A stretch of 45,779 nucleotides of DNA from the NCBI GenBank assembly GCA_003696905.1, contig RFHJ01000175.1, positions 1 to 45,779 on the forward strand, written 5' to 3'. Made by a program: the position numbers and the translations under genes. This document shows positions 1 to 45,779 of the stretch, piece by piece; the first letter of the stretch is position 1, and each line of letters starts with the position of its first letter. The notes beneath the pieces were generated by a model, which was not told the origin of the DNA, did no database searches, and worked only from the letters and a program-made list of their open reading frames with translations. This stretch comes from Gammaproteobacteria bacterium (GTDB lineage Bacteria; Pseudomonadota; Gammaproteobacteria; Chromatiales; Chromatiaceae).

Positions 1-1
1 C

Positions 2-697
2 ACCACCCGGGGGTGGACGCCAGCCAATTTCAAGCACGTCAACGCGGCAGGCAAGTGCAGCAGCTGTCACAACGGGGCGACTGCAAGCGGCAAGCCGGCC
101 GGTCACGTAACGACCATCGCAGAGTGCGACAGCTGTCATACGACCAATGGCTGGATGCCTGCGACCTTCCGCCACAGTGCGGTCACCGGTCCCTGTTCGA
201 GCTGCCACAACGGTCGTACAGCAACGGGCAAGCCGGCGGGCCATGTCCCGACGACGGCGGGGTGCGATACCTGTCATACAACGCGCGGCTGGTTGCCGGC
301 AAGGTTTGATCACGCCGGTGTTACCGGCGCCTGTGGTAGCTGCCATAACGGTAGATCCGCAACCGGTAAACCGGGAAACCATTTTGTGACGACTCGCGAT
401 TGTTCTGCCTGCCACCAGACCGCTGGGTGGAGTCCTGTGCGGAGCTACCGTCATGTCAACGCTCACTATCCGGATCACGGCGCGCGTTTGGGGTGCACGG
501 ATTGTCACACTGGCAATAGCGAGCGAATTTCCTGGCCCTTCCCGGCCTATGCTCCGGATTGCGCAGCCTGCCATGCCAAGGACTGGCGAGCCAAACCACA
601 CAAGGGTGCGAGTATCTCTCGGCTGCGCAACTGCGCGGGGCTGTGTCACAAGAGCCGTCCCCAGCATTCGCCGCGTGATCGGTCGTGGGACGACTGA
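2..697 (+). CDS. multiheme cytochrome c, 46-residue diheme repeats (5' partial)
   Basis: The frame is open from the window edge, so the start and any signal peptide lie upstream; 231 residues are visible. I count eight CXXCH heme motifs (CSSCH, CDSCH, CSSCH, CDTCH, CGSCH, CSACH, CTDCH, CAACH) and a ninth variant, CAGLCH (CX3CH), near the C-terminus. The first six lie in three tandem 46-residue units of the pattern CSSCHNG..ATGKPAGH....CD.CHTT.GW.PA.F.H. Each unit has two hemes and two further conserved His (in GKPxGH and xFxH) that could be distal ligands, so bis-His coordination is likely (inference). Such proteins carry electrons in the periplasm or at the cell surface. The stop overlaps the next start (TGATG), and a secreted protein and an outer-membrane barrel follow, which suggests envelope electron transfer. 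The ORF track starts it too late, at an internal ATG. Confidence 0.88.
   Translation, partial: TTRGWTPANFKHVNAAGKCSSCHNGATASGKPAGHVTTIAECDSCHTTNGWMPATFRHSAVTGPCSSCHNGRTATGKPAGHVPTTAGCDTCHTTRGWLPARFDHAGVTGACGSCHNGRSATGKPGNHFVTTRDCSACHQTAGWSPVRSYRHVNAHYPDHGARLGCTDCHTGNSERISWPFPAYAPDCAACHAKDWRAKPHKGASISRLRNCAGLCHKSRPQHSPRDRSWDD
56..469 (+). repeat. three tandem 138-bp coding repeats in the cytochrome
   Basis: Units begin at the first Cys of each CSSCH/CGSCH motif, at about 56, 194 and 332, giving an exact 46-codon period. Units 1 and 2 are close to identical in protein; unit 3 drifts at its end (VRSYRH instead of PAxFxH). More copies may lie upstream of the window. Confidence 0.8.
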
Positions 698-1200
698 TGG
701 ATACGGTCGCAAGATTCACAGGCTGGTGGCGCAGTTTGCTCTTTGTCCTACCCCTGGCGTATTCAGGTTCGGCACCGGCCGGCCTGCCCGAGATCATCGA
801 TCGTCTCGAGTGGTATCGGCAGGGAGAGTGCTGGAAGGTGGATTTGTCGCTGAACGTAACCTTTCTGCCGGTTGCTCAGTTTCCACATGGGGCATCTCGC
901 TACTTCTATGTCCTGGGGCTGGTAGCTCAGGAGGCCGGGGAAGCGAGTCATCTCTCGCGTCGTGAGCAGCGCCGAGTGCGTCTGGGTGACGGTGTGGGGA
1001 CGCTCCAGGTTACCTATGTCGGTGACCTGCCGGGTCCGAAGCTTTTGACGTTCGAAGCCGCGATCCCCATGCGTTATCGCCTGGTGGAACAGGAGCATGG
1101 GCTCTCTGTAGCGTTTGTGCCGGGCAATAGGGACACCCACTGCCTGTCGGAGAACAACCAATATAACAGTCGGAGAAGAGGTCTCAATGAGCACCAATAA
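697..1200 (+). CDS. small secreted protein of the cytochrome cluster, unknown function
   Basis: A 167-aa protein starting at the ATG that overlaps the cytochrome stop (TGATG); the ORF track uses an upstream in-frame GTG at 685. The N-terminus has a basic stretch then a hydrophobic run (WWRSLLFVLPLAYSGSAPA) that looks like a signal peptide, so export is likely. The mature part is rich in predicted beta strands (LSLNVTFLPVAQF, SRYFYVLGLV, GTLQVTYVGDLPG) and ends with a pattern (LLTFEAAIPMRYRLVEQ) that recalls the end of the N-terminal AMIN-like domain of the next gene. That similarity is by eye only. Two cysteines remain in the mature part (GECWK, THCLS) and could form a disulfide. It overlaps the next CDS by 14 nt, so the three genes look co-translated. 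No family is recognised; a periplasmic partner of the barrel or the cytochrome is plausible. Confidence 0.7.
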   Translation: MDTVARFTGWWRSLLFVLPLAYSGSAPAGLPEIIDRLEWYRQGECWKVDLSLNVTFLPVAQFPHGASRYFYVLGLVAQEAGEASHLSRREQRRVRLGDGVGTLQVTYVGDLPGPKLLTFEAAIPMRYRLVEQEHGLSVAFVPGNRDTHCLSENNQYNSRRRGLNEHQ

Positions 1201-3640
1201 GCATTATGGGAGGCACCTTGGTCTTGCGTTGGCGATGCTATGGCTGAGCCTGGTAGTGGCTGGAAAGGCGGGGGCCGCCAGCTTGCTGGACGACGTCTCG
1301 ATCGATTCCGACGCGTCGGGCGCGTTCGTGCGGATTACCTTTACGGCACCGATGCGCTATCAAAGCCACACACCGGTCAGTTCAGGGCGCGAATTGCGCA
1401 TCGTTCTCAGGCCGCTCTCCGAGGACGATTTTCCCCCATCGGCCCTGTATGGTACCGAGACCAGGAGTTGGGGCGGAAAGGAGAAGCATGCCCTGCGCAC
1501 CCTCCGCTACGAAGGTTCCCGAACCACCGGGTCCCTGCTGACACTCAAGTTTTCCCATACGGTGCACTTCAAGGTGCGTACAACTCCGGACATGCGAACC
1601 CTGGTTGTCCGGGTCGTAGTGCCGCAGGCAAGAAGCCAGTTGTCCACGGCGCGCGGACCAGTGACCTACTCGCAGATTCATTCGAAGGCGCCGCCGAGTC
1701 GGGTACGAGGGAAGAGATTTGTTGTGTATTTGCACTCCTCGAGCAGGCCCCTGGTCCCTGGGAAGTTTTCCAAGCCCGCCGGTCACGAGGACAAGCAGTT
1801 GTTCGTTAGCGAGGCCGATGTGCGGGGTAAGCATTGGTACCGCCTGACCCTGGGGTACTTTCGCACCCGTGATGAGGCCATCGCCGCATTGCCTTCGATC
1901 AAGACACGTTACCCCAAGGCATGGGTTGGAGTTGTCGCCGGTGGAGGCGCCACAACTGGTCAGCTCGGCGGGAATATTCCGCGAGGTGAGCGCGGTGGCC
2001 GGCTGGGGCGCGCGTTAGATGCTGGTCGTCAGGCGATGATTGACGGTGATTATCCACGGGCGATTCGATTGTTCAGCGCAGTCGCCGAGAGTGGTGACGA
2101 CCGGTTTGAACGAGAGGCTCTGGAACTGCTCGGCCTGGCGCGTGAACGCAATCACCAGTTGGCACAAGCGCGTGCAGTCTACGAAAGATATCTCAAGCGC
2201 TATCCCAAAGGTCCGGATGCGGAACGTGTACGCCAACGCCTGGCAGGTGTCGTGACGGCCAGCCCGTCAGAACGGGAGATTAAACTCGCCGGTTCTCCTA
2301 CTGTCCGCAAGTCGGCTGCCAAGCATCCCATGCGTTGGGATTGGTATGGCACTCTATCCCAGGAATACCTGAGGGATCAGACAACGTTGGCTACGGATCC
2401 GGCGGCTAAACGGGTCAATACCTCTCGCTTGACAACCCTGTTGAACATGACGGCGCGTGGCCGTGGTTCCGAATATGATCTGCGTGCTCAATTGGATGCG
2501 GAATATGCGAAAGACTTTGAAACCCAGAACGCGGGGCAAAATGCTTATACCATCAGTAATGCCTATTTAGACCTGCAGCACAAGCCGCTAGGGGTAGGGG
2601 CAAGGATCGGGCGTCAGCGTCATAATGGGGGCGGTATTCTGGGTCGTTTCGACGGGATACTGGTCAATTATGCGACGACAGAAACCGTTACCGTAAATGT
2701 GGTAGCCGGCTACCCAGTCGATCTGAACGAGAAAACTCGCGTCAACTACGATACCCGGTTCTACGGGTTGAGCGCCGATTACCAGCCGCTGGATGCCGAT
2801 TGGAGTTTCAATGCCTTCTACATCCGACAGGATAGGGAGGGGTATCTGGATCGCCAGGCAGTGGGAGGCGAGGCTCGTTACTTTACTCCGGACAAGTCGA
2901 TATTCACCCTCGTCGACTACGACGTTACCTATAGCGAATTGAATACCTTTCTGGTGCAAGGCAATTGGAATCTGTCTGATCGAGACGCGGTATTCGCCAC
3001 CTTGGATTACCGACTCAGTCCTAGCCTGACTACCAGCAATGCATTGATAGGGCAGACAACTGCCACGACACTCAAACAGTTGGGGCAGACATTCAGCGAG
3101 AGCGCGCTCCGGCAGTTGGCGCGTGACCGGACAGCGAAGGTGACGACTTTCACGGTGGGGGGGTCACATCGTATCCGGGAAGATCTGCAGGTAAGCGGGG
3201 ACATTACTGCTACCAAGACCGGTAGCACTCCATCATCCGGCGGGGTGGCGGCAACCCCGGCGACGGATCTTGAGTGGCTATACTCCTTGCAGATTCTGAG
3301 TAATGACCTGTGGTTCGAGGGCGACAGCAGTATCCTCACCTTGCGCTATGGCGATACCACCAGCTCAAGCAACTACACTGTCAGCATCGACTACCGTCAT
3401 CAGCTCTCCGGTGGGTGGCGGATCAATCCGAGGGTGTTGATCGACTACCGTGACCAGAGAGACCAACCCATAACCCAATTCCAAGTCAAACCCTCGGTGC
3501 GGGCTGAATACCGCATTACTCAGGATGTCGAGGTGGATCTCGAAGGGGGTGTGAGCTGGGAACATCAGACCGATAAGGTCAACGGGGATTCTCACACCGG
3601 CGGTTACTTCGTGTCCGCGGCCTATCGTTGGGACTTTTGA
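1187..3640 (+). CDS. outer-membrane beta-barrel with AMIN-like, SPOR and TPR regions
   Basis: An 817-aa protein. I take the ATG at 1187, not the track's GTG at 1115, because it has a purine-rich RBS (ggagaagagg) and is followed at once by a clear signal peptide ending near AGKAGAA. Order: beta-rich AMIN-like region (about 32-145), SPOR-like domain (about 176-250, KRFVVYLHSS ... WYRLTLGYFRTRDEA), TPR-like helices (about 274-352, GDYPRAIRLFSAVAE and AQARAVYERYLKRYPKG), then about 435 residues of alternating amphipathic strands ending in YRWDF. The terminal Phe is the usual outer-membrane assembly signal. SPOR and AMIN domains bind peptidoglycan, so the N-terminal half probably sits in the periplasm against the wall. 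Next to a multiheme cytochrome, a porin-cytochrome conduit is possible but unproven. A different role, such as polysaccharide export or surface assembly, is the main alternative. Confidence 0.8.
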   Translation: MSTNKHYGRHLGLALAMLWLSLVVAGKAGAASLLDDVSIDSDASGAFVRITFTAPMRYQSHTPVSSGRELRIVLRPLSEDDFPPSALYGTETRSWGGKEKHALRTLRYEGSRTTGSLLTLKFSHTVHFKVRTTPDMRTLVVRVVVPQARSQLSTARGPVTYSQIHSKAPPSRVRGKRFVVYLHSSSRPLVPGKFSKPAGHEDKQLFVSEADVRGKHWYRLTLGYFRTRDEAIAALPSIKTRYPKAWVGVVAGGGATTGQLGGNIPRGERGGRLGRALDAGRQAMIDGDYPRAIRLFSAVAESGDDRFEREALELLGLARERNHQLAQARAVYERYLKRYPKGPDAERVRQRLAGVVTASPSEREIKLAGSPTVRKSAAKHPMRWDWYGTLSQEYLRDQTTLATDPAAKRVNTSRLTTLLNMTARGRGSEYDLRAQLDAEYAKDFETQNAGQNAYTISNAYLDLQHKPLGVGARIGRQRHNGGGILGRFDGILVNYATTETVTVNVVAGYPVDLNEKTRVNYDTRFYGLSADYQPLDADWSFNAFYIRQDREGYLDRQAVGGEARYFTPDKSIFTLVDYDVTYSELNTFLVQGNWNLSDRDAVFATLDYRLSPSLTTSNALIGQTTATTLKQLGQTFSESALRQLARDRTAKVTTFTVGGSHRIREDLQVSGDITATKTGSTPSSGGVAATPATDLEWLYSLQILSNDLWFEGDSSILTLRYGDTTSSSNYTVSIDYRHQLSGGWRINPRVLIDYRDQRDQPITQFQVKPSVRAEYRITQDVEVDLEGGVSWEHQTDKVNGDSHTGGYFVSAAYRWDF

Positions 3641-22327: not shown

Positions 22328-23470
22328 TCAGTAGGCCAGATGTGACTGTTCTTCGATCTCCTTCACCGTCACCACGCGCCACATCTTCCAGAAATTCCAG
22401 GTCGTGTAGGCAATGATGATGGGCACGAAGATCACTGCGGCGATGAACATCACGTTCAGTGTCAGGTGGCTGGAAGTGGCATCCCACATCGTCAGGCTAT
22501 GGCTGGGGTTGTCGCTCGACGGCATGATGAAGGGGAACATCGAGAGCCCTGCGGTGAAGATGGTGCCGAGCTGCACCAGCGCGGTGAAGAAGAAGGTCCA
22601 GCCGGCACGGCCGGCCCTCGAGGCCAGGATGGCCAGCACGGCCGCAGCGAAGCCGGTTAGCGGCGCGAGCAGGGTGATCGGGTACTGGCTGTAGTTCTTC
22701 AGCCAGGCACCGGCGGCCACCACCACCTCCTTGCCCACTGGAATCGGCAGGGCGTCGTGGGGGCGGTCCTTGACGATCTCGAAGCCGTCGATGCCCAGTG
22801 CCACCCAGGTGCCGGCAAGCGCAAAGGCGGCGATGTAGACCAGCCCTGCCTTGGTGACCATGCCCTGGGCGCGCTGCGCAATGGGCTGTTCGGTGCGCAG
22901 TTGCAGGAAGGCCGCGCCATGCAGCACGATCATCGCGAGGCTCACCAGGCCGGCCAGCAGGGCGAAGGGGTTGAGCAGTGCCCAGAAACTGCCCGTATAC
23001 CAGGGTCGCATGATGTCGTCGTAGTGGAAGGGAACACCCTGCAGCAGGTTGCCGAAGGCGATGCCGAAGACCAGGGGCGGCACCGCACTACCGACCATCA
23101 GACCCCAGTCCCAGGTATTACGCCAGCGCGGATCGTCCAGTTTGGAACGGTAGTCGAACCCTACCGGTCGCAGGAACAGGGCGAACAATACCAGCAGCAT
23201 GGCGAAATAGAAGCCCGAGAACGAGGCCGCATACACCGCGGGCCAGGCGGCAAAGATGGCCCCGCCAGCGGTGATGAACCAGACCTGGTTGCCGTCCCAG
23301 TGCGGCCCGACCGTATTGATGATGACCCGCCGCTCGGGATCGCTCTTGCCCAGGAAGGGCAGCAGGCTGCCCACGCCCATGTCCATGCCGTCCATGATGG
23401 CGAAACCGACCAAGAGTATGCCGATCAGCAGCCACCATACGAATTTTAGTGATTCATAGTCCATGACCAT
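22328..23470 (-). CDS. cydB: cytochrome bd ubiquinol oxidase subunit II
   Basis: A 380-aa membrane protein starting MVMDYESLKFVWWLL, with GAGGAG 6-7 bases upstream; the track start 5 codons earlier would overlap cydA. The N-terminal LKFVWWLLIGILLVGFAIMDG with GMDMGVGSLLPFLGK and the later HWDGNQVWFITAGGAIFAAWP are conserved CydB landmarks. About eight to nine helices follow, ending in a short polar tail. CydB pairs with CydA in the oxygen-reducing quinol oxidase. It is 11 bases downstream of the cydA stop. Confidence 0.95.
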   Translation of the reverse strand: MVMDYESLKFVWWLLIGILLVGFAIMDGMDMGVGSLLPFLGKSDPERRVIINTVGPHWDGNQVWFITAGGAIFAAWPAVYAASFSGFYFAMLLVLFALFLRPVGFDYRSKLDDPRWRNTWDWGLMVGSAVPPLVFGIAFGNLLQGVPFHYDDIMRPWYTGSFWALLNPFALLAGLVSLAMIVLHGAAFLQLRTEQPIAQRAQGMVTKAGLVYIAAFALAGTWVALGIDGFEIVKDRPHDALPIPVGKEVVVAAGAWLKNYSQYPITLLAPLTGFAAAVLAILASRAGRAGWTFFFTALVQLGTIFTAGLSMFPFIMPSSDNPSHSLTMWDATSSHLTLNVMFIAAVIFVPIIIAYTTWNFWKMWRVVTVKEIEEQSHLAY

Positions 23471-23481
23471 TGTCGTTCTCC

Positions 23482-25080
23482 TCAATCTTGGTGCGGGGCG
23501 GCGGGCGCGCCGGCCAGGGTGGCGGTGCCGGCATTCCGTTCGAAGTGATAACGGCCGGTATGCAGCGAGCTCGGTCCCAGGCGGGCGAATTTGAACATCA
23601 GGTAGAACTCGATGATCGCCAGCACGGTGTAGAAGGTGACGAAGCCGGCGATGCTGATCATCAGGTCGGTTGCGGTCAGCGACGAGGTGGCGAGGAAGGT
23701 CGGCAATACCTCACCGATGGCCCAGGGCTGGCGCCCATACTCTGCCACGAACCAGCCGGTCTCGATGGCGATCCAGGGCAGCGGGATGCCATACAGGAAG
23801 GCGCGCAACAGCCAGCGGTGATTCTCCAGGCGCCGCCGCGCCATCATGATGAAGCCGGTCACGAACAGGAACAGCATGATGAAGCCGGAGGCGACCATGA
23901 TGCGAAAGGCCCAGAACATCAATGTGACGTCCGGGATGGTATCGCGTGCCGCCTTCGCAATCTGCTCATCGGTGGCGTCGACCACCTTGTCGGTATAGCG
24001 CTTGAGCAGCAGGGCGTAGCCCAGGTCCTTCTTGTACATGTCGAACAGGGCGCGGTCCTCTTCGTCACCGGTGCCATTGCGGATCGCGGTCATGGCGCGG
24101 TAGGCGACGATGCCGGCGCGGATCCGGTTCTCCGCCTGCTTGATCAGATCCTTGATACCGGTCACCTCCTCGTCCAGCGAGCGCGTCGCGATGATGCCCA
24201 TTACGTAGGGGATCTTGATTGCCGCTTCGGTTTCCATGGTTTCGTCGTTGGGGTAGCCGAACAGAGTGAACGATGCCGGCGGTTCTTCGGTGTGCCATTC
24301 GGCCTCGACGGCCGCCAGCTTGGTCTTCTGCACGTCACCCACCTCATAGCCGGATTCATCGCCGAGCACGATCACCGAGAGGACGCCGGCGAGGCCGAAG
24401 CCCAGGGCAACCGCCATGGAACGTCGTGCAAAACCCAGATCGCGTCGTTTCAACAGGTAATAGGCGGAGATGCCGGCGACGAACATGGAGCCGGTGACAT
24501 AGCCGGCGGCGACGGTGTGGATGAACTTCACCTGGGCGACCGGGTTGAAGAAGACCTCGGCGAAGCTGGTCATCTCCATGCGCATGGTCTCGAGGCTGAA
24601 CTCGGCACCCACCGGGTTCTGCATCCAGCCGTTGGCGACCAGGATCCACAGCGCGGACAGGTTGGTTCCCAGCGCGGTGAGGAAGGTCACGGCCAGGTGC
24701 TGGCGCTTGCTGAGCCGCTCCCAGCCGAGGAAGAACATGCCCACGAAGGTGGACTCGAGGAAGAAGGCCATCAGACCCTCGATCGCCAGCGGTGCGCCGA
24801 AGACGTCACCCACGTAGTGCGAGTAATAGGCCCAGTTGGTCCCGAATTCGAACTCCATCGTCAGGCCGGTGGTGACCCCCAGGGCGAAGTTGATGCCGAA
24901 CAGCTTGCCCCAGAACTTGGTCATGTCCTTGTAGACCTCTTTGCCGGTCATGACATAGACCGACTCCATGATCACCAGGATCCAGGTCAGGCCGAGGGTC
25001 AGCGGGACGAACAGAAAGTGGTACAGCGCGGTGAGAGCGAACTGCCATCGTGAAAGGTCGACGAAATCCGGATCCATCAT
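23482..25080 (-). CDS. cydA: cytochrome bd ubiquinol oxidase subunit I
   Basis: A 532-aa catalytic subunit. The b595 heme ligand is H21 in [13 protein letters not shown], and the conserved acidic pair is in [19 protein letters not shown]. The [13 protein letters not shown] motif is present. The quinol-binding Q-loop is of the long type (about 265-385, polar and charged, including [10 protein letters not shown]). It oxidises quinol and reduces O2 to water with very high oxygen affinity, without pumping protons. The first gene of cydABXDC; the start ATGATG is preceded by TGAGGAA. An FNR-like site about 100 bases upstream fits low-oxygen induction. Confidence 0.96.
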
Positions 25081-37604: not shown

Positions 37605-38654
37605 TCAGCAGATTCTTGGCAATTGTTCGCCGACCAGCATGTCGACGATCCGGTGGCCGCCGAAGGCGGTTTGCAATATCACACGGCCTGTGGATTCGGC
37701 CTGCACCTCGCCGATCACGGCACTGTGCCGGCCGCTCGGGTGCTCTCGCATCGCCGCCAGCAGCGCGTCGGACTCTTCTGCCGGCACCACCGCCACCAGT
37801 TTGCCCTCGTTGGCCAGGTAAAGGGGGTCGAGCCCCAACAGTTCGCACATGCCGCGCACCTCCGGTCGGATCGGCAGGGCCTGCTCATCGAGGGCGATGG
37901 TGACCCTGCTCGCCTCGGCGAACTCATTCAATACGGTCGCCAGTCCGCCTCGGGTGGCATCACGCAGGCAATGGATGTCGGGGCAGACCTTCAGCATGGC
38001 CTCCACGAGTTCATTCAAGGGCTGACAATCGGTCTCGATGCTGTTGTCCAGTGACATCTCGCCGCGCGCGTCCACGATGGCCGCCCCGTGATCACCGAGG
38101 AAGCCATTGATGATCACCTTGTCGCCAGGTTGGCCACGGTCGGCACGGATGTCGATCCCGCGGGGAATCACGCCGACGCCTGCGGTGTTGATGAACAGCT
38201 TGTCGGCCGCCCCCCGATGTACTACCTTGGTGTCACCGGTGACGATCGCCACCCCGGCGGCGTCTGCGGTCGCCTTCATCGAGGCCACCACCGCACGCAG
38301 CGTTTCCATGGGTAGCCCTTCCTCGATCACCATGCCGCAGGTCAGATAGAGGGGGCGCGCCCCGCCCACGGCCAGGTCGTTGATGGTGCCGGCGACCGCC
38401 AGCTTGCCGATGTCCCCACCGGGGAAGAACAGTGGGTCTACCACATAACTGTCGGTGGTCAGGGCCAGGCGGTCGCCCTGGGCGGTGAACCGGGTGAGAT
38501 CGAGGCGTGCCTGATCCTCGAGCCGGTGCAGCTCGGGAGAGGCGAAGCCCTCGACGAAGACCGACTCGATCAGGTCGCGCATGGCCTTGCCGCCCGCACC
38601 GTGGGCGAGGGTGATGGTTTCGGCCTGCAGGCGTCGTGACTGGAATCCTTTCAT
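37605..38654 (-). CDS. hypE: hydrogenase maturation carbamoyl dehydratase HypE
   Basis: A 349-aa PurM-like ATPase from MKGFQSRRLQAETITLAHG; the track start lies far upstream inside hypD in another frame. LAHGAGGKAMRDLI and DSYVVDPLFFPGGDIGKLAV are family landmarks. The C-terminus is PRIC, the Cys that takes a carbamoyl group from HypF and turns it into the thiocyanate used to make the cyanide ligands of the [NiFe] centre. It overlaps the hypD stop by 4 bases (ATGA). Confidence 0.95.
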   Translation of the reverse strand: MKGFQSRRLQAETITLAHGAGGKAMRDLIESVFVEGFASPELHRLEDQARLDLTRFTAQGDRLALTTDSYVVDPLFFPGGDIGKLAVAGTINDLAVGGARPLYLTCGMVIEEGLPMETLRAVVASMKATADAAGVAIVTGDTKVVHRGAADKLFINTAGVGVIPRGIDIRADRGQPGDKVIINGFLGDHGAAIVDARGEMSLDNSIETDCQPLNELVEAMLKVCPDIHCLRDATRGGLATVLNEFAEASRVTIALDEQALPIRPEVRGMCELLGLDPLYLANEGKLVAVVPAEESDALLAAMREHPSGRHSAVIGEVQAESTGRVILQTAFGGHRIVDMLVGEQLPRIC

Positions 38655-39802
38655 GCGTGAACGACCTCCTTCTCGCGGCGTTGCAGCAGCTCTTGCAGGT
38701 CGCCGAAGTTGTAGTAGGCGGCACAGGCCCCCTCGCTCGACACCATGAGCGCGCCCATCGGGGTCTCGGGCGTGCAACCGGTGCCGAAGACCTTGCACTG
38801 CCAGGGCCGGATGGCGCCCTTCAGCACCTCGCCACACTGGCAGGATTTGGGATCGGTGATACGCAGATTGGGGACCGAGAATTTCTGCTCCGCATCGAAA
38901 CGGGCGTATTCGGGACGCATCCGCACCCCCGAGTGATCGATGGATCCGAGACCACGCCATTCGAAGAACTCACGCAGCTCGAAGACCTGCGCAATGGCCT
39001 GCAGTCCGGCCGTATTGCCACGGCTGGCGACGACCCGGGCATATTGGTTCTCCACTTCGCAGCGACCATCGGCCATCTGTCGGAGCAACATCCAGATCGA
39101 TTGCAGGATGTCCAGCGGTTCGAAACCGGTGATCACAATGGGCCGATGGTAGTGCTGGGCCACGAACTGGAAGGGCTGTTCGCCCACCACCATGCTGACG
39201 TGCCCCGGTGCGAGAAAGCCATCGATGCGCATGTCGGGCGAGTCGAGAATCGCCTTGATGGTCGGCACCGTGGTGATGTGATTGCAGAACAGGGAGAAGT
39301 TCTCGATACCCTCCCGCTCGGCCTGCAGGACGGTTAGGGCGGTGCTGGGCATGGTGGTTTCGAAGCCCAGCGCGAAAAAGATCACCTGCCGGTCCGGATG
39401 CTTCTTGGCCAGCTGCAGCGCGTCCATGGGGGAGTAGACCATGCGCACATCGGCTCCCTCGGCCTTCGCCTGCAACAGGCTTTTCTTCGAACCGGGTACC
39501 CGCATCGCATCGCCAAAGGTGGTGAAGATCACATCGGGTCGTTCGGCGAGGGCCACGCAGTCGTCGACGCGGCCCATCGGCAGCACGCAGACCGGGCACC
39601 CGGGTCCGTGCACCAGCTCGATCCAGTCCGGCAGCAACTGTTCGATGCCGTAGCGGAAGATGGTGTGCGTATGGCCGCCGCAGAACTCCATCAACTGCAA
39701 CGGACCCTGGTGGGCCGCAGGGATCTTTTCGTACAGCGCCGTAATCTCCTTCACCAGTGCCCTGGCCTTGGCCGGGTCTCGGAATTCATCGACGTATTTC
39801 AT
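38651..39802 (-). CDS. hypD: hydrogenase iron-centre assembly protein HypD
   Basis: A 383-aa protein with the family motifs LMEFCGGHTHTIFRYG, VHGPGCPVCVLP and FTTFGDAMRVPGS near the N-terminus and the cysteine set of the [4Fe-4S] cluster at the C-terminus (CQCGEVLKG, CKVFGTGCTPETPMG). With HypC it forms the scaffold where the Fe(CN)2CO group is built. GGAGCA precedes the ATG, which overlaps the upstream SIS::DUF559 stop (ATGA). Full length, no damage seen. Confidence 0.96.
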   Translation of the reverse strand: MKYVDEFRDPAKARALVKEITALYEKIPAAHQGPLQLMEFCGGHTHTIFRYGIEQLLPDWIELVHGPGCPVCVLPMGRVDDCVALAERPDVIFTTFGDAMRVPGSKKSLLQAKAEGADVRMVYSPMDALQLAKKHPDRQVIFFALGFETTMPSTALTVLQAEREGIENFSLFCNHITTVPTIKAILDSPDMRIDGFLAPGHVSMVVGEQPFQFVAQHYHRPIVITGFEPLDILQSIWMLLRQMADGRCEVENQYARVVASRGNTAGLQAIAQVFELREFFEWRGLGSIDHSGVRMRPEYARFDAEQKFSVPNLRITDPKSCQCGEVLKGAIRPWQCKVFGTGCTPETPMGALMVSSEGACAAYYNFGDLQELLQRREKEVVHA

Positions 39803-41019
39803 GTTTTGCTCCTGGGGGGCGGAGTGTCCTGAATCGAGCTTTCCTGATTCAGCCTCCTTAGGATCTCCTCCAATACCGCTTCGGTTTCCTTGAAGACTTG
39901 GTCATTCCAGAAACGCACCACCCTGTATCCCTTTCGTTCGAGGAAGCGGGTTCGTTCCTGGTCATATTCCGTCTGAGCCTGATGTTGGCCACCATCGAGT
40001 TCCACCACGAGCTTGGCCTGATCACAGAGGAAATCGACGATGTAGGGGCCTACCGGATGCTGGCGGCGGAACTTGAAGCCCTGTAGTTGGCGATTGCGTA
40101 AACGCTGCCACAGGTGGCGTTCGGCATCGGTAGGGTTGTGGCGCACTGCGCGGGCGTGGTCTCGGGTGGTTGGGCTGCCCTCACCCCCCCTTGGTCCCCC
40201 CCTCTCCCGGGGGGAGAGGGGGGAAGAAGGAGGGGCTGCGCTCTCTTGCGCGTCGGGAGTGGCGGAGGATAGGACACCGTTTTTGGCCGACGAGCTGCTC
40301 TCTCTCCCCCTTGGGGGAGAGGGCTGGGGTGAGGGGGAAGTTGCGTTCCCAGCCGCCGATCCCCTCCGATCCGCCAGCAATGTATGCACCAGATCCCACA
40401 GGATGTGGTAGCAGAGCACATGGCTCTCCTGCACCCGGTGAATGGAATCGGTCGGCACCACCAGGCAGTGATCGAGAAGGCCGCTGGCCAGCATCTGGCC
40501 TCCATTGCCGCCGGCGAAGCCGATGGTCACCAGGCCCAGCGCCTGCGCCTTGCGAAAGGCTGCCATCAGATTTTCCGAGTTGCCGCTGGTGGAGAAGCCG
40601 GCCAGCACATCGCCCGGACGGCCATGGGCCTCGAGCTGACGGACAAAGATCTGGTCGAAGCCAACGTCGTTCCCCACCGCACTGGTCATGGCAGTGTCGT
40701 GACACAGGTTGATGGCGGGCAGGGCGGGGCGTCCGGCGGTGACCGGGTGCTGGAACTCGACCGCCAGGTGGCTGGCATCGCAGGATGATCCGCCGTTGCC
40801 CATGGTGAACAGCCGCCCCCCTTCGGCATAGGCGTCCGCAAGGGTCCGTGCGGCGTCGATCAGCGTCTCTGCGTTGGCTGTGAAGAAGCGCTGCTTCACC
40901 GCCACCGAGTCGGCCACCTTTTGCTGAACGGAATGCAGCAGTGCCCGCTGTTCCTGCGCGGGGTCCTTCTGGCCTCCCGAGAGGAAGGGATAGAGCTGAT
41001 CGAGCGGGTCGTCGCTCAC
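39799..41019 (-). CDS. SIS-domain isomerase fused to DUF559 nuclease domain
   Basis: A 406-aa ORF with three parts. Residues 1-220 are a GmhA/DiaA-like SIS protein (FTMGNGGSSCDASHLAVEF, GFSTSGNSENLMAAF), a gene often found in hyp clusters. Residues 221-285 are a low-complexity linker (SPSPQPSPPRGRE, SPLSPRERGG) that is the translation of a palindromic DNA repeat. Residues 286-392 are a DUF559 domain, a PD-(D/E)XK nuclease fold with IVDFLCDQAKLVVELDGGQH. The last ten residues (DTPPPRSKT) may be the original SIS end. The GTG start overlaps hypC (GTGA) with AGGAGG ahead, and the stop overlaps hypD (ATGA). The fusion looks like an in-frame insertion; whether SIS still works is unknown. Confidence 0.87.
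   Translation of the reverse strand: MSDDPLDQLYPFLSGGQKDPAQEQRALLHSVQQKVADSVAVKQRFFTANAETLIDAARTLADAYAEGGRLFTMGNGGSSCDASHLAVEFQHPVTAGRPALPAINLCHDTAMTSAVGNDVGFDQIFVRQLEAHGRPGDVLAGFSTSGNSENLMAAFRKAQALGLVTIGFAGGNGGQMLASGLLDHCLVVPTDSIHRVQESHVLCYHILWDLVHTLLADRRGSAAGNATSPSPQPSPPRGRESSSSAKNGVLSSATPDAQESAAPPSSPLSPRERGGPRGGEGSPTTRDHARAVRHNPTDAERHLWQRLRNRQLQGFKFRRQHPVGPYIVDFLCDQAKLVVELDGGQHQAQTEYDQERTRFLERKGYRVVRFWNDQVFKETEAVLEEILRRLNQESSIQDTPPPRSKT
40179..40336. repeat. inverted pair of C/G-rich palindromic repeats inside the SIS::DUF559 gene
   Basis: Two copies of the dispersed CCCTCACCCC...CTCTCCC...GGGAGAG repeat face each other. The left has a 12-bp stem (CCCCCCTCTCCC/GGGAGAGGGGGG, 40197-40223, GGG loop). 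The right has a 9-bp stem (CTCTCCCCC/GGGGGAGAG, 40302-40321, TT loop) and ends GGGGTGAGGGGG. A core of about 75 bp separates them. This pair accompanies the DUF559 coding part and encodes the linker. Confidence 0.75.
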
Positions 41020-41294
41020 CGCGCGCCCTCCTGCATCGCCGCTTGTTCCTCCTGGAGGTCACCGAGCTCGGCCAGGATCTCGAGCGTTCGTTCTGCCTCC
41101 TCGTGATCGATCCGACTCATGGCGAAGCCCACATGCACCAGTACCCAGTCGCCGACGCAGGCCTCGGGGGGATGCGCCTCGTCGACGATGCAGGCGATGT
41201 TGACCGGGCGCTTCACGCCCGCTACCTCGACCTTTGCCATCATGTTTTCAGGGTCGATCAGTTCGACGATCTGTCCGGGAATGCCTAGGCACAT
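41016..41294 (-). CDS. hypC: HypC/HybG/HupF family hydrogenase assembly chaperone
   Basis: A 92-aa protein starting MCLGIPGQIVELI. Cys2 is the essential ligand for the iron precursor and for the large subunit during assembly. The rest (VEVAGVKRPVNIACIVDEA, VGDWVLVHVGFAMSRIDHEEAERTLEIL) is typical. The track merges it with an upstream frame inside hypF. The ATG lies inside the last 10 bases of hypF with AAGGAG ahead. It hands the iron group from HypCD to the hydrogenase large subunit. Confidence 0.94.
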   Translation of the reverse strand: MCLGIPGQIVELIDPENMMAKVEVAGVKRPVNIACIVDEAHPPEACVGDWVLVHVGFAMSRIDHEEAERTLEILAELGDLQEEQAAMQEGAR

Positions 41295-43648
41295 GGTATG
41301 GACTCCTTGAGCCTGCGGGCGGCCGCGACCACGGCCTGGCCCAGGGACAGGCCGCCATCGTTGGCGGGGACCTGTCGGTGAATCAATGGTTGCAGCCCAG
41401 CCTGTGTGATGCCTTGTTGCATCAGCGGAAGCAGCAGTCGGTTCTGCATCACGCCCCCGGAGAGGGCGATGTGTGTGATCCGGTGCTTGTGGGCGAGCCG
41501 AACGGCCGCCTCGGTGAAGGCGCGGGCAAGGCCCGTATGAAAACGTGCGGAAATGATGGCACGAGACGCACCGTGGGCGATGTCTTGCGAGAGCCCTGGC
41601 CAAAGGGAACGCGGGTCGATTACCCAGGGTACTTTCGACATGATCAATTGCAGAGGGTAGGCCTGTTGCCAGTGCTGCTGGCAGAGAGACAGATTGGTCG
41701 TGTTCTCCAATGCCAGCGCCGCCTGGCCCTCGAAGTATTGGCGTTCGACGCACAGTCCCAGGATGGCCGCTACGGCATCGATCAGGCGGCCAACGGAAGA
41801 GGCGGAGGGACAATTGATCCCGCGACCCAGCATCTGTTCGATACGGTGCACGGGCAGCTTTCCCCAGTCGGCGCCGCCGAGCTGTGCCTGCCAGTGCTCG
41901 CCAAAGGCGGCAACAGAGTGGGCCACGGCGTTCCGCCAGGGTTCGCGCATTGCCTGGGCGCCCCCGGGCAGGGGCGTCGGCGCCAGATGTGCCAGACGCC
42001 GGTAGCTGCGGTAGTCGGCCAGCAGTATCTCGCCGCCCCACAGTGTGCCGTCGCCACCCATGCCGATACCATCCAGTGCGATGCCGATGACTGCCCCGTC
42101 ATTGAGTGACCAGCCGTTGTCCGCCAGGCAGGCCGCGATGTGGGCATGGTGGTGTTGCACCTCCTGCAGCGGGAGCTCCTGTGATCGGGCATCGTCGCGG
42201 CCTCGCTTGCCGGACAGGTACTCGGGATGCAGATCGACCGCGAGACATTCTGGCCGATGGTCGAACAGTTGCCGGTAGAGCGCCAGGTTGCGCTCGAAGT
42301 CCTCGAAGGTCTCCAGGTTCTCCAGATCACCCATGTGTTGCGACAGGATGGCCCGGCCCGACTTGATCAGACAGAAGGTGTTCTTGAGCTCACCACCATA
42401 GGCCAGCACTTCGGGTGCACGCTCGAACCCGGGGGGCAGGGCGATGGGCGCCGGTGCGTAGCCGCGTGCCCGTCGCAATATCTGCGTCTGCCCTTCGAGC
42501 ACCCGAACCACGGAGTCGTCGACACGGTTGAGGATATCGCGATCGTGCATCAGAAACCGGTCTGCGACGCCAGCCAACTGCCGACGGGCCTGCAGGTCGT
42601 CGGTGCAGGGCGGCAGTCCGCCGAGATTGCCGGAGGTGGCGACGATGGGACCGTCGAGCCGATCCAACAGCAGGTGGTGCAAAGGGCTGTAGGGCAGCAT
42701 GAAGCCCAGGGTGTTCTGCCCCGGCGCCAGGGCCTCGGGGAGACCGTTCTTCGGCAGGGCATCGAGCAAGACGATAGGGGCTTCGGCCGAGGTGAGCAGG
42801 GCCGCCTCCTGCTCGTCGATTCGGGCGTATCGCTCGATCTGATCGAGGCTGGTGGCCATCAGGGCGAAAGGCTTGGCCGGGCGGTGCTTGCGCGCCCGCA
42901 GGGTTTCCACCGCCCCGCGGTTGCGCGCATCACAGATCAGATGAAAACCGCCGATGCCCTTGACCGCGAGGATCTTGCCGTCACCTACCGCCTGTGCAGC
43001 CAGCGCGATCGGATCGCCTTCGAGGGGGCCTTGATTGTCTTCGATCCACAGTCGTGGCCCGCAGTCGGGACAGGCATTGGGCTGGGCATGAAAGCGCCGG
43101 TCTGCCGGATTCTCGTACTCCTCGCGGCAGGCCTCGCACATCGGAAAGGACGCCATGCTGGTATTGGCCCTGTCGTAGGGAATCCGGCGCACGATCGACA
43201 GACGTGGTCCACAGTGGGTGCAGTTGGTAAAGGCATAGCCATGACGCCGGTTGCCGGGGTCGCGGATCTCGGCCAGACACTCAGAGCAGGTCGCCGCATC
43301 CGGGGTGATTGGTGTATCGAGGGTGCCGCCGCGGCTGGGGCGAATACTGAAGTCAGGGCATTCGAGGTAGTCGACCCAGTGACGATCGATGCGCTCGATC
43401 CGTGCCAGCGGCGGACAGGCCCGATACAACGCCGGTTCGAATGCCTCGAGCTGTGGGGTCGGGCCATACAGCTGTACCCACACGCCCTCGCCATCGTTGC
43501 AGACCTCGCCGGTCAGGCCCAGCTGCCGCGCAACGTGCCAGACGGTCGGACGGAAACCCACACCCTGGACCTGGCCGCGCACGCGCAGTGCCAGGCCGGC
43601 GCGCCGGTCGGTGTCGGTGGGCTGCGGTTGTATCAATGGACGGTGCAT
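41285..43648 (-). CDS. hypF: carbamoyltransferase HypF
   Basis: A 787-aa multidomain protein: acylphosphatase domain (about 20-110, LRVRGQVQGVGFRPTVWHVA), two CX2C zinc fingers (CSEC...CTHC and CEAC...CPDC, about 120-200), a YrdC-like domain (about 215-400, ILAVKGIGGFHLICDA and KPFALM) and a Kae1-like domain (about 420-770, VQHHHAHIAACLADNGW and GIALDGIGMGGDGTLWGGE). It makes carbamoyl-adenylate from carbamoyl phosphate and ATP and moves the carbamoyl to HypE. Full length. Its start overlaps the hydrogenase large-subunit gene by 16 bases. Confidence 0.96.
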   Translation of the reverse strand: MHRPLIQPQPTDTDRRAGLALRVRGQVQGVGFRPTVWHVARQLGLTGEVCNDGEGVWVQLYGPTPQLEAFEPALYRACPPLARIERIDRHWVDYLECPDFSIRPSRGGTLDTPITPDAATCSECLAEIRDPGNRRHGYAFTNCTHCGPRLSIVRRIPYDRANTSMASFPMCEACREEYENPADRRFHAQPNACPDCGPRLWIEDNQGPLEGDPIALAAQAVGDGKILAVKGIGGFHLICDARNRGAVETLRARKHRPAKPFALMATSLDQIERYARIDEQEAALLTSAEAPIVLLDALPKNGLPEALAPGQNTLGFMLPYSPLHHLLLDRLDGPIVATSGNLGGLPPCTDDLQARRQLAGVADRFLMHDRDILNRVDDSVVRVLEGQTQILRRARGYAPAPIALPPGFERAPEVLAYGGELKNTFCLIKSGRAILSQHMGDLENLETFEDFERNLALYRQLFDHRPECLAVDLHPEYLSGKRGRDDARSQELPLQEVQHHHAHIAACLADNGWSLNDGAVIGIALDGIGMGGDGTLWGGEILLADYRSYRRLAHLAPTPLPGGAQAMREPWRNAVAHSVAAFGEHWQAQLGGADWGKLPVHRIEQMLGRGINCPSASSVGRLIDAVAAILGLCVERQYFEGQAALALENTTNLSLCQQHWQQAYPLQLIMSKVPWVIDPRSLWPGLSQDIAHGASRAIISARFHTGLARAFTEAAVRLAHKHRITHIALSGGVMQNRLLLPLMQQGITQAGLQPLIHRQVPANDGGLSLGQAVVAAARRLKESIPCA

Positions 43649-45075
43649 ACCATACAGGGGTCGAAGGACCGAATGATGTGTTGAACGCGTACCTCGCCCC
43701 GGTCATCGCTGACATCCGTGCCGGCCAGCGCCTGCTCCAGGGGCCCAGGGACCTCTTGGGCATCGCGCGGTGAGAAGTTCCAGGTGGTCGGGGCGATGAT
43801 CTGGTAATTGAGGATTCGACCCTTGTGTACCCGCACCCAGTGCCCCAGGCTGCCGCGGGCCGCCTCCACCAGGCCAACCCCCTGTCCCTCCGGCGGCAGC
43901 CCGGCAGCAGTACAGAAGGATTTTCCCGGAGACAGCCGTGTGGCCCAGTCCTCCATCAACGGCACGACCCTGGCGAGTTCCAGGAGACGAGCGACCACCC
44001 GGTTACGGACATTGCCGCCGCTCTTCGATACCAGCGCACGGATCAAGGGGTGTCCGTCCACCAGCTGCCGGGCGAGGGCCCCCACCTCCATCGGCTGGCC
44101 ATCGAGACGCGGCGCCTTGCACCAGCTGTAGCCCCGTTCACTCATGTCGGTGGGGATGGTGCTACCCTCGAAGGGGTGACGTGGCTCGGGATGTCCCGCA
44201 GTCCAGCTATGGCTGAGGTCCTCGGTGATCCGGGACTGGTCGAGGGGTTGGGAATGCCCGTCTTGCCAGGTCCCTTGTGCGAAAGTGGGTCCTTCGTCGT
44301 CGTAGGCTCCGTAACTGAGGAACCGATCATGGCCGCGTCCCAGGGAGGACAGGCCCAGTTCGTTGGAGAGCCGAAGAAAGCGGCCGAAGTCCGTGGTGGC
44401 GTGTGCGGCTGCCCAGGCGTCCAGCGCTTCGTCCGAATCCAGGGCAACGACCTGCTCCAGGGTGTCGCCAAACAGGGTCTGCTCCAGAAAACGGCGAAAG
44501 GCCCCGATGGTCAGCCGAATACGGGTTTGATGATGCGGCTCCACGGGGCAGGTGGTGCCCCCAGGTTGCAAGGCGAGGGAGTGAGGCCACTTGCCGGCCA
44601 ACAGTGCCGTCAGGTGCAGTAACTCGGCGCGGGCGCGCAGCACCTCGGGGTAAGCGGAACCGGTTTGTGCCTTGAAACGCCCAGCGATCTCGTCATGCCA
44701 GGGTTCATTGGCGTAGACGTCGCGCGCGAAGTCCGGCATGAAGAAGAGATAGAAATGGGTCAGGTGGTCGGCCAGATTTTCCGTCGCCAGGATCAGGTTG
44801 GTCGCGAGCCGACCATTCTCGGCTGGTTCGACCGACCCCAGGTCGGCCAGCGCGCGTGCGGCCGCCACCGACTGGGAAACCGAACAGATGCCACAGATGC
44901 GCGGTGTGTAGACCAGGGCATCATTGGGATGCTTGCCATGAAGGATCTGCTCGAAGCCACGGAACAGGGGCGAGTTCACCTGCGCCGACAGCACCTGTTG
45001 ATCGTCCACCTCGAGACGAACCTCGAGATCGCCTTCGACACGGTTGATCGGCCCGAGGATGCGGCGCCCGCTCAT
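43633..45075 (-). CDS. hupV: [NiFe] hydrogenase large subunit, HupV/HoxC (group 2b-like)
   Basis: A 480-aa large subunit. The N-terminal metal motif is TPRICGICSVSQS and the C-terminal one is SFDPCMVCTVH, giving the four Cys that bind Ni and Fe. The protein stops exactly at this His, so it lacks the cleavable tail seen in energy-converting hydrogenases and needs no maturation protease. That trait and the sequence (SGRRILGPINRVEGDLEVRL, ALQPGGTT, YQIIAPTTWNFSPRD) match the H2-sensing group 2b. Such pairs bind H2 slowly, tolerate O2 and signal to a kinase (HupT/HoxJ), not seen in this window. GAGGAGG precedes the ATG, which overlaps hupU (ATGA). Confidence 0.92.
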   Translation of the reverse strand: MSGRRILGPINRVEGDLEVRLEVDDQQVLSAQVNSPLFRGFEQILHGKHPNDALVYTPRICGICSVSQSVAAARALADLGSVEPAENGRLATNLILATENLADHLTHFYLFFMPDFARDVYANEPWHDEIAGRFKAQTGSAYPEVLRARAELLHLTALLAGKWPHSLALQPGGTTCPVEPHHQTRIRLTIGAFRRFLEQTLFGDTLEQVVALDSDEALDAWAAAHATTDFGRFLRLSNELGLSSLGRGHDRFLSYGAYDDEGPTFAQGTWQDGHSQPLDQSRITEDLSHSWTAGHPEPRHPFEGSTIPTDMSERGYSWCKAPRLDGQPMEVGALARQLVDGHPLIRALVSKSGGNVRNRVVARLLELARVVPLMEDWATRLSPGKSFCTAAGLPPEGQGVGLVEAARGSLGHWVRVHKGRILNYQIIAPTTWNFSPRDAQEVPGPLEQALAGTDVSDDRGEVRVQHIIRSFDPCMVCTVH

Positions 45076-45779
45076 CGCTCCTCCTCGGGGTCATGACCCG
45101 GCGCCACCCGGATGTGGTCGCTCACCGCGTTCACCTTGAGGCGGCGCGGCGTGGCAGCCTTGGAGAGCGAGGCCAGGGCGACGAACCAGGCCTTGGGCAT
45201 GTCTGTGGGCAATCCGACGGGAATGCCGGCGACCTTCGGCGTCTGGGTAAAGGGGTGGCCTGGCTCCTCGAAGCTGGGTGCGGTGCAATTGATGCAGGCA
45301 TATCCGCCGCCCAGGCAGGAGCCGGAGCCATTCCAGGGTCGGATATTGCAATCCGCCCGTGCCTGGGTGCCCAGGCAGCCGAGGTTCTCCATCATGCACC
45401 CGAGGTCGGAGGGCTGTTCGGCGCTGGCCTTGTATTCATAGTATTCGTTGCGCGGGCAACCGTGGTGGACCAGGTGGTCGGTATAGTCGCGGGGACGGGC
45501 CAGGGTATCCAGCCGCTCCGGTTTCAGGTTGTCCTGTGCGAGCTGGCCGAGGGTTTCGATCACCCAGCCGGGATGGGTTGGGCAGCCCGCAACATTGATC
45601 ACCGGCAGGCCGGCGCTGCTGCGCCACTCGGCGCCCAGGAGACCGCCGGGCTGGTGGCCGTCGTATTGCAGGCCGCAGGCCTCGGCGATGTTGCCGCCGG
45701 CGGCGGTGATGCCGCCGAACGCCGCACAGCTGCCGATCGCCAGGGTGTATCGCGCCCGTTCGGCCAGGGAGGCGATGAG
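45072..45779 (-). CDS. hupU: [NiFe] hydrogenase small subunit, HupU/HoxB (5' partial)
   Basis: The frame is open to the window edge; 235 C-terminal residues are visible, and the track starts it too late at an internal GTG. AIGSCAAFGGI and NVAGCPTHPGW carry proximal-cluster Cys. HHGCPRNEYYEYKASAEQ with DLGCMMENLGCLG holds the distal-cluster His and Cys, and the CNIRPWNG...GSCLGGGYACINC stretch holds the medial cluster. The C-terminus is short and polar (APGHDPEEER) with no membrane anchor, as expected for the soluble sensor type. Absence of a Tat signal cannot be checked here. It forms the heterodimer with the large subunit encoded next, with a 4-nt overlap. Confidence 0.92.
   Translation of the reverse strand, partial: LIASLAERARYTLAIGSCAAFGGITAAGGNIAEACGLQYDGHQPGGLLGAEWRSSAGLPVINVAGCPTHPGWVIETLGQLAQDNLKPERLDTLARPRDYTDHLVHHGCPRNEYYEYKASAEQPSDLGCMMENLGCLGTQARADCNIRPWNGSGSCLGGGYACINCTAPSFEEPGHPFTQTPKVAGIPVGLPTDMPKAWFVALASLSKAATPRRLKVNAVSDHIRVAPGHDPEEER

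Follow-up and report, generated by a model that had tools for sequence, protein, structure and literature searches.

What kind of envelope system lies at the left edge of a contig where the end of a multiheme cytochrome gene runs into an outer-membrane barrel? The DNA in question (the window: 45,779 nucleotides, contig RFHJ01000175.1) comes from a Sedimenticola-related gammaproteobacterium, and its positions 1–3640 hold three overlapping plus-strand genes: the 3′ end of a giant cytochrome gene, a gene for a small secreted protein, and a porin gene. Matched by gene order and motifs, the locus is the 3′ end of a PCC3-type operon. What it encodes is probably a wall-anchored, trans-envelope electron conduit of that type. 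The features on which the argument draws are as follows.

2–697, plus strand: giant ("extracellular" PCC3) multiheme cytochrome, C-terminal 231 residues with eight CXXCH motifs and one CX3CH, cut by the contig start
56–400, plus strand: 46-residue diheme units of the cytochrome (CXXCH ... His ... CXXCH ... W..F.H), two complete (56–193 and 194–331) and half of a third
401–697, plus strand: conserved cap at the cytochrome C-terminus, bearing three CXXCH plus one CX3CH (CAGLCH, 632–649)
697–1200, plus strand: small secreted protein, 167 aa, with a Sec-type signal; free-standing paralogue of the porin N-terminal domain (NTD)
1187–3640, plus strand: PCC3-type outer-membrane porin, 817 aa, ending in Phe
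1268–1627, plus strand: porin NTD, about 120 aa, probably beta-rich, without a Pfam or PDB relative
1694–1936, plus strand: SPOR domain (PF05036), matching the DamX and RlpA SPOR structures by profile
2009–2254, plus strand: TPR region (TPR_16, 2.1e-6)
2321–3637, plus strand: beta-barrel domain of about 439 aa, to which 22 strands are assigned
3020–3139, plus strand: long, conserved loop of 40 residues that joins strands 13 and 14 and is predicted to lie on the outer side or to fold into the lumen

The frame at 2–697 is open from the contig edge and carries CXXCH at residues 19, 42, 65, 88, 111, 134, 165 and 187, with CAGLCH at residue 211; a CX3CH is present in most complete relatives. A chance origin of the motifs can be rejected, as residue-shuffled controls averaged 0.11 CXXCH and never exceeded 4 in 20,000 trials. 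Over 41 units of 46 residues, which come from five relatives as well as from the window, C1, C4, H5, H17, C24, C27, H28 and H40 are 100% conserved, and G12, K13 and F38 are likewise invariant. With two CXXCH and two additional His, each unit has what a pair of bis-His hemes would need within 46 residues. An initial sequence-only reading had proposed at least eight CXXCH, 46-residue diheme units with two extra His each, and an overlap with genes for a secreted protein and an outer-membrane barrel. All of this holds: there are exactly eight CXXCH plus the one CX3CH, the units are fully conserved, and the frames overlap, with the small-protein start meeting the cytochrome stop at 697 as TGATG and the porin ATG at 1187 falling within the small-protein open reading frame (ORF).

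Because the gene is truncated at the contig start, the signal peptide and heme total of the window cytochrome cannot be read. A search of the same bin for its remainder found nothing (the source assembly has 2.68 Mb in 321 contigs, the window being contig C250, and the bin is 92% complete). The assembly probably broke here at the repeats, since the contigs of several relatives (L020, L039, L059, L060 and L083) also end inside this gene. At the DNA level, the window repeats have diverged too far to be called as tandem repeats; the sister gene shows tandem arrays of 138/276 bp with ~70% matches. The window cytochrome is 76% identical to the C-terminus of a 709-aa protein with 27 CXXCH in a sister genome.

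How large do these cytochromes become? The window genome is congeneric with a public "Sedimenticola sp." metagenome-assembled genome (G004, JALVTT010000128.1), and G004 and G003 serve as same-genus sister genomes. Giant cytochromes of relatives carry 27 (G004), 31 (G003), 47 (G027), 62 (G017) and 67 (G014) CXXCH, and those of more distant genomes reach 67–69. In G239 (C17:42976–55236, L094/L066), a single 4086-residue frame, read from two adjoining stretches of one contig, holds 133 CXXCH plus one CX3CH, and a PCC3-type porin follows it directly. This surpasses the 85 sites that He et al. in their 2017 paper called the largest number reported (PMC5566968).

That paper describes PCC3 as a porin, an extracellular multiheme cytochrome (median 34 sites, up to 85), a periplasmic multiheme cytochrome (median 21) and an inner-membrane component, IMP, with an SGxxG and two WX3HX13H motifs, occurring in Alpha-, Beta- and Gammaproteobacteria, vent symbionts among them (PMC5566968). 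PCC3 has since been mapped in Gallionellaceae (PMC10734462), Sideroxydans (PMC12442390, PMC12016527, PMC8788666) and Leptothrix (PMC13386937). Sideroxydans lithotrophicus ES-1 has two clusters, Slit_1446–1449 and Slit_0867–0870. Extracellular electron transfer by the published PCC3 systems is predicted (PMC12442390), and no PCC3 biochemistry was found in the searchable literature.

Complete operons in relatives show what the window truncates. G004 and G003 each have a divergent FeS/FAD oxidoreductase gene, IMP (~275–290 aa), a 24-heme cytochrome, the giant cytochrome (27 or 31 CXXCH), the small protein and the porin. More distant genomes have the same gene order, mostly with 21-heme periplasmic cytochromes. 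The order of IMP, periplasmic cytochrome (21/24 hemes), giant cytochrome of variable heme number and porin is that of Slit_1446–1449, and the IMP motifs, low residue-to-heme ratio and repeats are further points of likeness; the window copy differs in being truncated by the contig edge. IMP with SGxxG and two WX3HX13H, motifs that doubled as the search criterion, was found in 31 related loci, G003 and G004 included, and in nearly all of them its gene directly precedes the 21/24-heme cytochrome. At ~300 aa and with two WX3HX13H, IMP is probably a diheme cytochrome b. Almost every relative whose upstream sequence is long enough has a periplasmic cytochrome, mostly with 21 or 24 CXXCH; the 31 recognised include 24 with 21 CXXCH and six with 24. 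The FeS/FAD gene diverges from the operon in at least 23 loci and possibly encodes a cytoplasmic point of electron entry or exit. In L016 (3424–6787) and other loci, this oxidoreductase is of a 2x[4Fe-4S] FAD/NAD(P) type with a TEPASLHP motif, and in G004 a gene for an ankyrin/Sel1 repeat protein adjoins it. CcmE, for cytochrome c maturation, is encoded in the window genome.

Could the locus belong to a better-known conduit? MtrAB, MtoAB and PioAB likewise combine a porin with a periplasmic multiheme cytochrome as an outer-membrane conduit, which is a functional analogy. The relatives of the window cytochrome have many more hemes than these systems, and the window cytochrome, a truncated protein, scores 31.9 bits against the TIGR03508 cut-off of 192.2 for the DmsE/MtrA decaheme family. 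Membership in the MtrB family is rejected, as PF11854 (MtrB_PioB) matches neither the window porin nor anything else in the genome. The sequence-only reading was thus right that the design differs from MtrB-type porins, and its proposal of a cytochrome–porin envelope conduit with wall-binding-type domains stands as the best reading. The kind itself is not new, being the PCC3 of 2017.

What is added to PCC3 lies mainly in the porin. Read with sub-profiles cut from an alignment of nine homologues, the window porin and its relatives share the order NTD, SPOR, TPR, barrel. The SPOR domain of the window porin scores 24.2 bits against a Pfam gathering cut-off of 21, which agrees with the earlier call of a peptidoglycan-binding-type domain, and PF05036 matches 26 of 27 SPOR regions extracted from homologues. 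Its TPR matches are clear yet under their cut-offs. Of the 47 porins that reach 550 aa, 23 contain all four domains, 13 have no detected SPOR, seven lack the NTD, and four show TPR and barrel only. Peptidoglycan binding is established for the SPOR family. The likeness to DamX and RlpA is confined to this domain; what sets the window porin apart from those proteins is the fusion of SPOR with TPR and an outer-membrane barrel, next to a cytochrome. Judged from its domains, nearly half of the porin (NTD, SPOR and TPR) would be periplasmic.

The small secreted protein belongs to the same picture. It matches the standalone NTD proteins of relatives (profile–profile, 97%, E 1e-10), which in turn match the porin NTD (99.8%, E 3e-28). 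By this comparison the porin NTD also occurs as a free copy, namely the small protein. An NTD ORF lies near the porin in 15 of the 47 cases. No known-domain identity emerged for the NTD, with no consistent Pfam match among 29 members and no PDB match, and its resemblance to AMIN is an impression lacking such matches; AMIN and other known domains were dropped as candidates.

Is the barrel suited to holding a heme chain? The window porin has a C-terminal Phe and an alternating-strand pattern, and across homologues the barrel domain (the part after the TPR region) has a median of 435 residues. In 48 homologues, loops after even strands are short and nearly fixed in length (mean 2.8 aa) and loops after odd strands are long and variable (mean 12.0 aa), as would be expected if the former were short turns on the periplasmic side and the latter long loops outside. 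The chosen strand segments have a mean alternation of 0.64 versus 0.42 for random placement (standard deviation 0.064), a difference of ~3.4 standard deviations for a choice that was not blind. The loop pattern fits a wide, roughly 22-strand barrel. The loop between strands 13 and 14 has 38–54 residues in the same homologues and is highly conserved (SPxLTTxNALxGQT...QLAxDRTA), making it a candidate cytochrome contact or constriction. The 2017 paper, in its available part, presents the PCC3 porin as a large barrel with up to 42 predicted transmembrane regions and mentions neither SPOR, TPR nor peptidoglycan (PMC5566968). "Up to 42" is ill-suited to the window-porin homologues, whose post-TPR part is about 435 residues. 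The same part makes no mention of the small NTD protein or the divergent FeS/FAD gene for PCC3. The searchable literature yielded no description of the conserved NTD–SPOR–TPR–barrel architecture, the 22-strand loop pattern or the small protein as a free NTD copy. The wall-anchor/TPR porin architecture, the paralogous NTD protein and the roughly 22-strand barrel would be additions to known PCC3.

A TPR region just before a barrel also recalls exporters such as PgaA or BcsC, and the porin might be an export or assembly channel that passes the giant cytochrome to the surface rather than an insulating sheath for a transmembrane heme chain. The free NTD copy is consistent with this, as is the fact that the neighbouring cytochrome grows to as many as 133 motifs while the barrel stays at ~435 aa, as if the barrel need not match the length of the wire. 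However, a fixed barrel is also expected if only a constant segment of the cytochrome sits inside it. In a PDB profile search with the porin, the matches were soluble proteins with TPR or SPOR and did not include an outer-membrane barrel, so no sequence relation to the solved TPR-barrel exporters was found. Moreover, c-type cytochromes fold in the periplasm with their hemes attached, so export through a 22-strand pore would be unusual. An export role is unlikely on balance.

How closely are porin and cytochrome tied together? In Gammaproteobacteria, a heme-rich cytochrome lies directly upstream of 42 of the 47 porins, or 42 of the 43 with upstream sequence; for four of the five unpaired porins a contig edge lies within 125 bp. 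G325 (L095) has an orphan PCC3-like SPOR–TPR–barrel porin and an NTD gene; the 5.5 kb upstream contain no multiheme cytochrome. A phylum-wide search gave further porin matches, four of four beside a cytochrome and one of them outside Gammaproteobacteria. The sequence-only reading had allowed that the barrel might pair with non-cytochrome genes or prove too narrow for heme, either of which would tell against a conduit; the pairing counts and the wide, 22-strand loop pattern point the other way. Shortened barrels without cytochromes in G005, G287 and G375 look degenerate or divergent. For example, G005 (L023), a one-contig genome of the same genus, retains 207 barrel residues beside transposase-like genes and no cytochrome, and G287 (L097) has lost both cytochromes and has a broken porin and IMP. 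Barrel matches with E <1e-60 occur in 46 of 369 sampled gammaproteobacterial genomes, so PCC3 is widespread among them; viral contigs and plasmids were also searched and yielded no relative.

The pairing bears on a second alternative, in which the giant cytochrome would stay in the periplasm, bound to the wall, as an electron store or a lateral wire, without crossing the outer membrane; the porin would only anchor it and admit a small redox partner. SPOR and TPR are periplasmic-side modules, and the N-termini of the complete giant cytochromes that were read have no lipoprotein box, nor was an external anchor identified. On the other hand, a dedicated barrel beside the cytochrome in 42 of 43 cases argues for membrane crossing, and He et al. 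predict an extracellular location for the giant cytochrome (PMC5566968). A purely periplasmic role is accordingly quite improbable.

How might a PCC3-type conduit work? From gene order, motifs, domain architecture, pairing and conservation we infer heme ligation, complex formation, heme passage through the barrel, wall binding and electron flow, in a scheme drawn by analogy with the complete operons of the sister genomes. First, electrons would pass between the inner-membrane IMP, the periplasmic cytochrome of 21 or 24 hemes and the giant cytochrome with its repeats. Second, the giant cytochrome would be a bis-His heme wire with ~23 residues per heme, whose length may change by whole 46-residue diheme units. 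Third, the porin would hold this wire at or through the outer membrane, with its roughly 22-strand barrel in the membrane and its NTD, SPOR and TPR in the periplasm, where SPOR may grip peptidoglycan and TPR/NTD may dock partners. Fourth, the small protein, as a soluble NTD copy, would likely be an assembly or bridging factor. A bolder version makes PCC3 porins a distinct wall-anchored conduit class: SPOR would target denuded (division-site) peptidoglycan, TPR/NTD and the free NTD protein would assemble the heme wire into the barrel, and conduits would sit at the septum. This version is speculative and rather doubtful.

Several observations weigh against the conduit reading or its details. SPOR was undetected in 17 of the 47 porins, so the family can do without SPOR wall anchoring. 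Strand assignment was by eye, from alternating segments of which some alternate weakly. AlphaFold2 models were unusable both for the porin (two sequences, pLDDT 33, with only helices at residues 272–357 better predicted) and for the cytochrome fragment (in-register repeats, pLDDT 42). Neither IMP nor the periplasmic cytochrome turned up in the bin, which is 92% complete and where the operon is cut by a contig edge, so that operon completeness in this organism is inferred. The assignment to PCC3 is by gene order and motifs, as described for the published clusters. Finally, on Fe(II) both ES-1 clusters are lower than on thiosulfate (PMC8788666).

The conserved porin design, with one domain for wall binding, another for docking and a defined barrel, offers a testable model for how very long heme chains could be held in the envelope. 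It also makes a better marker for finding PCC3 than the low-complexity cytochromes.

Other genes on the same contig include cytochrome bd oxidase genes (22328–25080) and a [NiFe] hydrogenase with hyp genes (37605–45779). Within the hydrogenase maturation cluster, a SIS-domain protein (39799–41019) runs in its 3′ half through a low-complexity linker into a DUF559 nuclease-like domain, an arrangement that resembles a DUF559 insertion.

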